Positions 4,379 through 14,934 of a DNA stretch of 64,000 nt are shown here, piece after piece. The number at the start of each line of letters is the position of its first letter. Position 1 is the first letter of the stretch. This DNA is from Parerythrobacter lacustris. Lineage in GTDB: Bacteria; Pseudomonadota; Alphaproteobacteria; Sphingomonadales; Sphingomonadaceae. Below the pieces are notes generated by a model, which ran no database searches, was not told the origin of the DNA, and worked only from the letters and a program-made list of their open reading frames with translations. The stretch lies in contig NZ_JANKHH010000004.1 in the NCBI RefSeq assembly GCF_024626475.1, forward strand, positions 62,001 to 126,000, given 5' to 3'. The position numbers and the translations under genes were made by a program.

Positions 4379-4463
4379 CGCGCGCCGGTTTAGGCCGATT
4401 GCCAAGGCTGGCAAGCGCGGGCATGACATGCGGCAGAAGATAATCGAGAGGAGAGAGACGGCG

Positions 4464-6068
4464 ATGGCTTCTTTGGGCGCGATGCAGGACTGGACCATGC
4501 GCATCACCCACGTGATCGATCACGCGGCGCGCGAGGCTGGAACCCGCGAAATAGTCAGCCGCTGGGCTGACGGCAGCGAGACCCGGACCGACTGGGCGGG
4601 CATCCGGCGCGACGCGCTGAAGATGGCGCAGGCGCTGCAGGCGCTCGGCATCCGCAAGGGCGACCGCGTCGCGAGCCTGGCCATGAACCATTCGCGGCAT
4701 CTGGTCAGCTGGTACGGCGTCGCCGGGATGGGCGGGGTGCTCCACACGGTCAACCCGCGGCTGTTCGACGACCAGCTCGAATATATCGTCAACCACGCCG
4801 AAGACCGCGTGCTGTGCTACGACGCGGCGTTCCAGCCGATCGTCGACCGGATGAAAGACCGCTGGACTACCGTCGAGCACTACGTCTGCTACGATTCCGG
4901 CGCACACTCGACCGCCTTCGAGGACTGGATTGGCGCGCAGGACGGCGATTTCGAATGGGTCACGGGCGGCGAAACCGATCCTTGTATGATCTGCTACACC
5001 AGCGGCACGACCGGCAACCCCAAGGGGGTGCAGTACGAGCACCGCTCGACCCTGATGCACGCTTTGGCAGGACTGCAACCGGCGGCGTTCAACTTCAGCT
5101 CGGCGAGCGTGATGCTGCCGGTGGTGCCGATGTTCCATGCCGCCAGCTGGGGCTTGCCCTATGCCGGGGCGATGGCGGGGATCAAATTCGTCTTCTCCGC
5201 GGTCAACGACCCGGCGGTGCTGCATGAACTGATGCTGCGCGAAGGGGTTACCGACAGCGCGGGAGTGCCGACGGTGTGGCTCGCGCACTTCCAATATTGC
5301 GACAAGCAAGGCATCGACCTGCCGCCTCTCAAGGCCGCAACGATCGGCGGCTCGGCGGCGCCCAAATTCATGATCGAACGGCTGATGCGGAACGGCACCC
5401 GCGTACAGCATGCCTGGGGCATGACCGAAACCAGCCCCATCGGCACGGTCGGCGGGCCGACCTTCGATTGGGACCAGCTCAGCTTCGAAGAGAAGGTGGC
5501 CAAGACCGCGATGCAGGGCCGCCCGGTGTTCGGGGTCGAGCTGCGCACGGTCAGCCTTGACGACATGCTTACCCCGCTGCCGCGTGATGGCGAGACTTCC
5601 GGCGCGCTGCAGATCCGCGGGCCGTGGATCATCAAGCGCTATTTCAAGGCCGAGCAGGACGCGACCCATAATGATGGCTGGTTCGATACCGGCGACGTCG
5701 GCATCATCCACCCCGACGGCACGCTGCAGCTCACCGACCGGACCAAGGACGTCATCAAGTCGGGCGGCGAGTGGATCAGTTCGGTCGAACTCGAGAACGC
5801 CGCGGTCGGCCATCCGGCGGTGGCGGAGGCGGCCTGCGTTGGCATGTTTCACCCCAAGTGGGACGAACGCCCGGTGCTGTTCGTGGTGAAGAAGGAAGGC
5901 GCGGAGTGCTCGGCCGACGATATCATCGCGCACCTCACGCCGCTGATCGCCAAGTGGTGGCTGCCCGATGCGGTGGAGTTCGTCGATGACATTCCGCACA
6001 CCGCCACTGGCAAGATCAGCAAGAAGGACCTGCGCGACCGGTTCGCCGATTACCGGCTGGCGGAGTAG
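4464..6068 (+). CDS. fatty-acid/acyl-CoA ligase, AMP-forming
   Basis: This 534-residue enzyme of the adenylate-forming superfamily is expected to activate a medium- or long-chain carboxylic acid with ATP and CoA. The P-loop-like A3 motif is [12 protein letters not shown], near residue 175. A5 is WGMTETSP near 314, A7 is WFDTGDVG near 407 and A8 is [15 protein letters not shown], and the C-terminal lysine motif is [10 protein letters not shown]. The ATG at 4464 is preceded by GAGGAGAGA at nine bases, better than the ATG at 4428. It is divergent from the small membrane gene, followed by a repeat element, and probably monocistronic. Substrate range cannot be read from sequence. Confidence 0.92.
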
Positions 6069-6074
6069 GACATT

Positions 6075-6211
6075 CCTCCCCATCGACTTGCGATGGGGAG
6101 GTGGCAGCGCGAAGCGCTGACGGAGGGGTGGGATGGATGCACCCAATCGCGCCAAAGCCCCTCCACCGCCCTGCGGGCGGTCCCCCTCCCCATCGCAAGA
6201 CGATGGGGAGG
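6075..6211. repeat. composite palindromic intergenic repeat with two identical hairpins
   Basis: The same hairpin, CCTCCCCATCG, five bases, CGATGGGGAGG, occurs at 6075-6101 and again at 6185-6211. The stem is 11 perfect base pairs in both. Between them lie GGAGGGGT/CCCCTCC and AGCGC/GCGCT segments that can also pair, so the whole 137-base block is a nested palindrome. It fills the gap between the acyl-CoA ligase and the next gene and looks like a dispersed intergenic element. Confidence 0.8.
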
Positions 6212-6230: not shown

Positions 6231-6665
6231 ATGGCTGAGACCACATTTATCGACCCGACCCCCGCCGGTTTCCAGGCGTTCAAGGACCTGCCGCGCGACG
6301 AGCCGATCCATATGCTCAACCTGCTGCGCTATCGCGAGCTGGCGGAATATCCCGCGGGGCACGAGCACCATGGCAAGGGCTGGACCGGGCGGCGCGCCTA
6401 TGAGGAATATGGCAAGACCAGCGGCCCGATCTTCCGCCGGGTCGGTGGCAGCATCGTGTGGCGCGGGACTTTTCAGGCGATGGTCACCGGGCCGGAGTCC
6501 GAGCGGTGGGACGACGGCTTCGTCGCGCAGTACCCGAACAGTGCGGCGTTCTTCGCAATGATCAAGGATCCGGATTACCAGCTGGCGGTGGTCAACCGCA
6601 GCGCCGCGCTGGTCGACAGCCGCCTGGTCCGGTTCATGCCGGGCGAAGGCGGGGAAGGTTTCTAG
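6231..6665 (+). CDS. DUF1330-family protein
   Basis: A 144-residue soluble protein with the small alpha/beta ferredoxin-like barrel style of DUF1330: IHMLNLLRYRE at residues 24-34, a central YGKTSGPIFRRVGG segment, and WDDGFVAQYPNSAAFFAMIKDPDY near 95-120. The biochemical role of the family is unknown. AAGGA lies seven bases upstream of the ATG. Its stop codon overlaps that of the convergent small gene. It follows the repeat block, so linkage with the ligase is doubtful. Confidence 0.8.
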   Translation: MAETTFIDPTPAGFQAFKDLPRDEPIHMLNLLRYRELAEYPAGHEHHGKGWTGRRAYEEYGKTSGPIFRRVGGSIVWRGTFQAMVTGPESERWDDGFVAQYPNSAAFFAMIKDPDYQLAVVNRSAALVDSRLVRFMPGEGGEGF

Positions 6666-13931: not shown

Positions 13932-14840
13932 ATGCGCGAAACCGCCTACGCCAAGATCAACCTCGCGCTGCATGTCCGCAGGCGGCGGGAGGATGGGTAT
14001 CACGAGCTTGAGACCTTGTTCGCCTTTGTCGATGCCGGCGATGTGCTGAGCGCGCGGCCTGCTGCGCAGGACAGCCTGCATGTGGTGGGTGAATTTTCGG
14101 GCGCGCTGCATCCTGCCCCCCTCCCCACGGGGGAGAAGTTGGGGGTGGGAGGGCTGCGGTCTGACTATCAGGCCGAAGCAAGCCCCCCTCCCGACCTCCC
14201 CCCTCACGGGGGGAGGGGATTTGGCGCGCTCGACAATCTCGTCGGCCGTGCGCTCAATGCCCTCCCGCGCCCACAAGGGCTCGCGGTCACGCTCGAGAAA
14301 AATCTCCCCGTCGCGGCGGGCCTGGGCGGCGGATCGGCGGATGCGGGGGCGGTGTTCCGGATGGTCGAGGCGCTGCATGGCCTGCCCGAAGACTGGCCAG
14401 CTCGCGCGGCCAAGCTCGGCGCGGATGTCCCCGCCTGCGTGCTCAGCCGCACCCATATCGGGCTTGGCACCGGCACCGAGCAGGTCGAGGTCGAGGACGA
14501 TCTCGCCGGGACCCCGGTTTTGCTGGTCAATCCGAGGGTGCCGCTCTCGACCGGGCCGGTGTTCAAGGCGTGGGACGGGAAAGATCGCGGCGCGCTCCCC
14601 GATGGTCCGGCGAGCCGGATCGCGAGGGATGGGCGCAACGACCTCGAAGCACCCGCAATCTCGCACTGCCCGGTGATCGCCAAAGTGCTGGCGGCGCTGC
14701 AAGCCACCAACCCGTGGCTCGCCCGTATGTCCGGCTCGGGCGCGACCTGCTTTGCGCTTTACGACACGCCTGAGGCGCGCGACGCCGCGCAAGCCGCCGT
14801 GCCGCGCGAATGGTGGACAATGCTGGGCGCGCTGCGATGA
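13932..14840 (+). CDS. ispE: 4-diphosphocytidyl-2-C-methyl-D-erythritol kinase
   Basis: Phosphorylates CDP-methylerythritol in the MEP isoprenoid pathway. The GHMP-kinase signature is PVAAGLGGGSADAGAVF near residues 129-145; the N-terminal ETAYAKINLALHV and the C-terminal ARMSGSGATCFALYD are typical. It is 302 residues, longer than the usual 280-290, because residues 61-96 are encoded by a palindromic repeat (14113-14218) inserted without breaking the frame. They give a Pro/Gly-rich segment (LPTGEKLGVGG...SPPPDLPPHGGRG). The insert replaces a surface loop in the first half of the fold, so the enzyme may still work, as the rest is intact. The ATG at 13932 matches the family start. Confidence 0.93.
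   Translation: MRETAYAKINLALHVRRRREDGYHELETLFAFVDAGDVLSARPAAQDSLHVVGEFSGALHPAPLPTGEKLGVGGLRSDYQAEASPPPDLPPHGGRGFGALDNLVGRALNALPRPQGLAVTLEKNLPVAAGLGGGSADAGAVFRMVEALHGLPEDWPARAAKLGADVPACVLSRTHIGLGTGTEQVEVEDDLAGTPVLLVNPRVPLSTGPVFKAWDGKDRGALPDGPASRIARDGRNDLEAPAISHCPVIAKVLAALQATNPWLARMSGSGATCFALYDTPEARDAAQAAVPREWWTMLGALR
14113..14218. repeat. palindromic repeat inserted in frame inside ispE
   Basis: A left arm with CTCCCCACGGGGGAGAAG and GGGGGTGGGAGGGCT (to 14155) and a right arm from 14180 with AGCCCCCCTCCC and CTCACGGGGGGAGGGG are imperfect reverse complements around a 24-base centre. The style is that of the dispersed intergenic repeats of these genomes, but this copy lies inside a conserved gene and is translated, adding about 36 residues. 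Confidence 0.75.
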
Positions 14841-14857
14841 GCCAACCTTGCCGACTC

Positions 14858-14924
14858 CCGTTCGTGCTGAGCCTGTCGAAGCACACGCTGCGCGCCTGCC
14901 CTTCGACAGGCTCAGGGCGAACGG
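14858..14924. repeat. REP-type palindrome between ispE and the next gene
   Basis: The arms at 14858-14881 and 14901-14924 match as reverse complements with two mismatches (GAGCCTGTCGAAG against CTTCGACAGGCTC). This is the widely dispersed proteobacterial REP sequence. Its right end abuts GGAGG (14923-14927), which serves as the ribosome binding site of the next gene. Confidence 0.85.
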
Positions 14925-14934
14925 AGGTTGGAGC

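Follow-up and report, generated by a model that had tools for sequence, protein, structure and literature searches.

The ispE locus and its in-frame insert

Within the window (the whole stretch of 64,000 nucleotides that was analysed), ispE carries an additional in-frame segment. The host genome comprises 3.06 Mb in 12 contigs with completeness rated 100%, and its closest named relatives, judged by IspE, belong to Erythrobacter and Porphyrobacter. The gene is present in a single copy, being the sole ispE match in the genome. The following features were assigned:

13932 to 14840, + strand: ispE, encoding 4-diphosphocytidyl-2-C-methyl-D-erythritol kinase, 302 amino acids (NF011202, E 6.7e-80)
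14112 to 14222, + strand: the in-frame insert, 37 codons (residues 61-97) that insert-free IspE lacks (protein alignment; pLDDT below 50 at residues 62-97)
14100 to 14107, + strand: GGCGCGCT, left copy of an 8-bp direct repeat flanking the insert, a candidate target duplication (from the sequence; other carriers have no shared copy)
14223 to 14230, + strand: GGCGCGCT, right copy of the same direct repeat (from the sequence; other carriers have no shared copy)

The insert is 111 nt long and lies entirely within the ispE open frame. The spacing between the AYAKIN and GLGGGSAD motifs was 125 residues in the window IspE and exactly 88 in all insert-free Erythrobacteraceae-type loci compared; among 77 named relatives, it was 88 residues in 67, 87 in one and 95-122 in nine. 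The initial annotation had described about 36 residues of IspE as encoded in frame by a palindrome, which was correct, because the insert amounts to 37 residues relative to insert-free relatives. It had also proposed aligning IspE from relatives, and this alignment showed that the segment is missing from most of them and is thus no general property of related IspE proteins. Since the IspE of insert-free relatives lacks exactly that segment, the insert is, judging from these alignments, a recent gain in ispE. Its 3' end is located just ahead of the conserved DNLV motif, four residues before the DNLV Asn. This Asn is the counterpart of Asn65 in the E. coli enzyme, a residue that we take to adjoin the nucleotide site.

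A genome-wide family of paired hairpin units

The insert contains a palindromic element composed of two units in inverted orientation:

14117 to 14216, both strands: palindromic element, an inverted pair of units with a full-length match to model R1 (fold z -3.5)
14116 to 14152, + strand: unit 1, a degenerate hairpin (CCCCCTCCCC-ACG-GGGGAG) plus a G-rich tail (TTGGGGGTGGGAGGG) (from the sequence and family alignments)
14182 to 14218, - strand: unit 2, the inverted counterpart of unit 1, a C-rich tail followed by a hairpin (CCTCCCCCC-TCAC-GGGGGGAGG) (from the sequence and family alignments)

In the family unit, a G-rich tail (YYGGGGGTGGGGGT) comes after a hairpin with the consensus CCCCTCCCC-loop-GGGGAGGGG, and in the paired element the tails of the two units point toward each other over a spacer of variable length. 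R1, a covariance model built from 20 family copies with no ispE copy included, matched the insert with 59.2 bits on one strand and 56.0 bits on the other (E 9.9e-11 for the window and 4.7e-9 for the genome). The match lies wholly within the frame 13932-14840, confirming that a palindrome is situated inside ispE. The insert strand was predicted to fold with -74.9 kcal/mol, compared with -59.8 +/- 4.3 kcal/mol in dinucleotide shuffles (0 of 200 shuffles reached this value).

A search of the genome with R1 identified 25 distinct places at E 1e-3 or better, ispE among them. These places lie both inside and outside genes, so the repeat is not unique to ispE. The family is patchily distributed, being present in 22 of 40 sampled relatives, and the R1 search of these 40 did not find it in two genomes of the same genus (G001 and G002). 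No conserved GTAG or CGTC tag was found on the unit ends, either in family alignments or in the flanks of 29 copies inspected by eye. Rfam returned just microRNA-type chance matches to the element, far under their thresholds, and no model of the Rickettsia palindromic elements (RPE) matched in NCBIfam scans. Elsewhere in the window, a sequence at 6076-6210 that scores 26.7 bits is a weak relative of the element. It has the hairpins TCCCCATCG...CGATGGGGA and lies in the gap separating the gene at 4428-6068 from the one at 6231-6665.

Copies in other genes

Based on codon usage and open frames, nine of the 25 copies lie in frame within genes and 16 look intergenic, in agreement with the description of the ispE palindrome as intergenic in style. 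The in-gene copies are found in ispE, ligA (two copies; L116), glyS (two copies; L118), trmD (L114), and three further genes (L115, L117 and L122), whose products are an ABC-F ATPase (L115), the large subunit of a terminase and an HTH protein. The gene identities were backed by Pfam, with the match of the HTH protein slightly under the Pfam cut-off. Taking an assumed coding fraction of about 88%, nine in-gene copies out of 25 is far below the expectation for random landing, as would be expected if most hits in genes had been purged. Among the intergenic copies, 70 of 96 frames (73%) were free of stops, compared with 57 +/- 4 in dinucleotide shuffles, an excess that is only approximate because the frames of one palindrome are not independent.

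For LigA, GlyS and TrmD, alignments to PDB homologs reach the edge of each insert and restart beyond it. Both LigA inserts were missing from all 13 other genomes searched, and the GlyS inserts were missing from most of the 13, with a related insert at GlyS site 1 in G035. A third segment in glyS is repeat-like but degenerate. Additionally, members of the family were found in frame in ileS and egtB of a relative with a draft genome (G141).

Forms and history of the insert in relatives

Full two-unit copies occupy the same IspE loop in the window species, G035, G141 (L141), Porphyrobacter sp. TH134, MAG L167, Erythrobacter sp. EC-HK427 and Aurantiacibacter xanthus. At this loop, Erythrobacter sp. 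WG, Porphyrobacter MAG bin-4 and MAG clean1750 have one-unit (half) copies, and L161 has a short remnant. The hairpin is read in one frame in the window species (PLPTGE...) and A. xanthus (PLPEGE...), and in another frame (PPSLGGG...) in G035, G141, L167 and L169. A single fixed reading frame for the element was therefore rejected, with the window species and G035 using different frames at the same site.

In a quick IspE tree, the window species falls in a clade of 29 made up of eight carriers of some form of the insert and a nested group of 21 non-carriers; outside this clade lie A. xanthus and EC-HK427. One origin for all IspE inserts was rejected, as the well-supported branches of the tree need at least two changes per class. 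Two histories would account for this: loss, remaking and exchange of an old insertion, or more than one hit at the IspE site. In a separate observation, the ispE inserts of L006, L039, L167 and L169 are much more alike than the fourfold-degenerate sites of their genes (for example, 9% versus 49% difference), across lineages separated in the tree.

Among B-frame carriers, the inserts differ by 8-18%, against 27-52% at fourfold sites of the genes that contain them. Moreover, the B-type spacer was seen in ispE copies only, among the loci compared. These two findings tend to favour two alternatives to independent insertion: exchange of the insert among lineages by recombination, or a constraint that acts on the DNA. 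Constraint of this kind would be expected if the ispE mRNA hairpin or the DNA palindrome were itself under selection, for example through mRNA stability or ribosome pausing, with the protein merely tolerating it, and the strong predicted fold is in line with such a role. We nevertheless regard it as unlikely: recombination of the loop between lineages yields the same pattern and is consistent with the ispE-only spacer, a near-identical insert is found in EC-HK427 in another clade of the gene tree, and close relatives manage without the insert.

Unrelated palindromes in IspE and GlyS

A family-wide scan detected ispE in 387 of 398 genomes. Among its best matches, those that were split or long led to at least the following carriers of an IspE insert derived from an unrelated palindrome: G003 and G270 (VCPERSRG...RPSTSLG), G192 (at the loop used in the window), G180 (HPGLVPGST...) and G079 (PAKAGAQ...WAPAFAGAQ). 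Each of these four palindromes is a genome-wide repeat with many further copies. The insert of G180 starts near CGTC and may be a member of the tagged REP kind. Specifically in GlyS, the loop between ARWLVEE and LAEQAA (site 2; L118, L242 and L243) contains unrelated repeat-derived segments in different genera, for example TPAQAGVQ...LDSRLRGNDE in G016 and SPLPGGEGPGVG...HPQPLPSREG in G008. The IspE insert of the window is one case of many: its genome has nine in-gene copies, and no fewer than five families of palindromes occur in IspE when the whole bacterial family is considered.

Loop lengths in IspE vary across the family, and in-frame insertions of about 17-52 amino acids in G154 (L054), G065 (L051) and G295 (L036) showed no clear genome-wide palindrome on follow-up. 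Both observations would suit an ordinary extension of a Pro/Gly-rich low-complexity loop, with the palindrome as a by-product of GC-rich codons. For the window insert this reading is very unlikely and is refuted by the copies found genome-wide: the held-out covariance model matched it as one of 25 places, the same sequence occurs between genes and in unrelated proteins, and half copies of unit size sit at the same IspE site. In the IspE of G091 (L035), a different loop is expanded by a short ASTG tandem repeat of about 12 amino acids.

Apparent tolerance of the insert by the enzyme

The ispE frame is intact in all carriers. The dN/dS of the IspE core was 0.08-0.16 between carriers and 0.11-0.14 between non-carriers, and that of the insert was about 0.5 or more. 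By these ratios, the IspE core is under strong purifying selection despite the insert. An AlphaFold2 model based on a 30-sequence alignment had a mean pLDDT of 87.7; 232 of the 302 residues, including most of the core, scored at least 90, residues 62-97 scored below 50, and the top structural matches of this model in Foldseek were IspE enzymes. In the model, the insert contributes about 37 extra residues that are apparently floppy. The proposal that the repeat had entered the enzyme without breaking it accordingly appears sound, given a single-copy gene, an open frame in every carrier, a core dN/dS of about 0.1 and a confidently predicted core fold.

Chance open frames are common in GC-rich DNA, as the 73% of stop-free frames in intergenic copies illustrates, and ispE could in principle be broken or split, the long frame being a by-product. 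Such decay is highly improbable, because this is the only ispE of a genome rated complete, the frame and the low core dN/dS are maintained in all carriers, and the alignment shows that the window IspE has retained the conserved kinase motifs. Although repeats of this type break assemblies, and contigs of the draft G141 end near copies, the chance that a repeat was wrongly joined into ispE is negligible, since the insert is interior to a contig of 543 kb, and genomes that were sequenced independently, including G035 with its single 3.2-Mb contig, also have inserts at this place.

Presumed mobility and proposed mechanism

It is very probable that a small, non-autonomous, REP/BIME-like palindromic repeat integrated into ispE and has been kept as an in-frame, stop-free insert in a surface loop. 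The sequence comparisons and the structural model indicate a tolerated, REP-like element that is presumably translated and presumably mobile. RAYT (NF047646) had no match in this genome (G000), and no relation between RAYT and element copy number was found across 40 genomes. RAYT was rejected as the mobiliser, being absent from G000 and from the element-rich genomes G003, G008, G017 and G022. On target-site duplication the signs are mixed: the GGCGCGCT repeat flanks the window insert, but no duplication is common to the other ispE carriers or to the LigA or GlyS sites. Because neither a consistent target-site duplication, nor RAYT, nor a link between RAYT and copy number was found, we infer mobility from copy number and patchy presence.

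In the mechanism that we propose, a REP/BIME-like element of about 80-115 bp, made of two inverted units each with a hairpin and a G-rich tail, would integrate into ispE. The DNA might move as single-stranded hairpin units with the help of a trans-acting factor. Insertions out of frame or in structured parts of the protein would be purged, and the survivors would occupy loops, where they would be translated as disordered Pro/Gly-rich linkers and be close to neutral. The ispE insert would have been retained because it is in frame, free of stops and placed in a surface loop. Counting against this explanation, the insert differs less than the fourfold sites in several carrier pairs (for example, 9% versus 49%), a pattern not expected if a single old insertion had simply drifted neutrally.

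Quite possibly, although we lean slightly against it, unrelated palindrome families convergently add disordered loops at the same sites of essential enzymes (IspE and GlyS) in Sphingomonadaceae/Erythrobacteraceae, and the loops also pass between lineages by short-tract recombination or same-site re-insertion. If so, free-living bacteria would keep gaining protein loops from mobile palindromes.

Relation to known repeats

Rickettsia palindromic elements (Ogata et al. 2000, as described in PMC2229807) are about 105-146 bp long, occur between genes and fused in frame in conserved protein genes, and are tolerated by the enzyme tested, guanylate kinase (PMC2229807). The resemblance to these elements noted by the initial annotation holds as an analogy: the window family is likewise a palindromic repeat with many copies, found in frame in conserved genes (ispE, ligA, glyS and trmD) and absent from orthologs. 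It does not belong to that sequence family. Unlike the Rickettsia elements, it is GC-rich, has a different sequence matched by no RPE model, resides in a host outside Rickettsiales, and has one-unit and two-unit forms at one site.

Di Nocera et al. (2013, PMC3733652) described REPs with a GTAG or CGTC tag that lie, in many bacteria, within the ORFs of core genes as monomers or dimers and encode 20-30 residues, with inverted dimers common; the host genes named there include a DNA ligase gene of O. terrae and, in E. litoralis and S. alaskensis, truB and genes for tRNA synthetases. The window family (the CCCCTCCC family) is similar in its hairpin units, often in inverted dimers, and in its presence in ORFs of core genes, but has neither the GTAG nor the CGTC tag. 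The main text of PMC3733652 contains no mention of the CCCCTCCC motif, IspE or glycyl-tRNA synthetase.

BIME/REP sequences associated with RAYT (Y1 HUH) transposases share the short hairpin units, often in inverted pairs, and the mostly intergenic location. They show no obvious target duplications; in the window family no duplication is common to the carriers, although an 8-bp direct repeat flanks the window insert. Unlike those sequences, the window family occurs in a genome with no RAYT match, shows no relation to RAYT in copy number (40 genomes) and has no GTAG/GGAG tag. MITEs are similar in being short and non-autonomous with terminal inverted repeats, but here no target-site duplication is common to the carriers, and a limited search found no related transposase ends.

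No earlier account of the motif was found in the sphingomonad literature covered, which took in few subscription papers and no supplementary files. The kind of element is already known (Rickettsia RPE and intragenic GTAG/CGTC REPs, including those of E. litoralis), and the sequence family appears to be undescribed. The window family is considered a new member of this known kind, because intragenic REPs and RPEs are known, neither tag is present and no prior description was found. The unusual part is the convergent sites in IspE and GlyS and the series of half and full copies.

'Selfish DNA in protein genes', best known from Rickettsia, is here seen in free-living relatives too, in a repeat family that appears to be undescribed. 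A single site in an essential enzyme provides a natural series (empty, one-unit, two-unit and remnant forms), and together with the convergent IspE and GlyS loops this series makes repeat entry into proteins, persistence and any gained peptide function testable. Annotators of these genomes should bear in mind that a Pro/Gly-rich stretch in a core enzyme may derive from a repeat.

A second, unrelated palindrome (GTTCGTGCTGAGCCTGTCGAAG / CTTCGACAGGCTCAGGGCGAAC) is located at 14851-14931 in the window, starting about 10 nt past the ispE stop, with 38-nt arms that are 79% complementary. Sequences like it appear translated in the ABC-F ATPase of this genome (L115, VRPELVEG...PSTSSGRT) and in the IleRS of G141 (L134).
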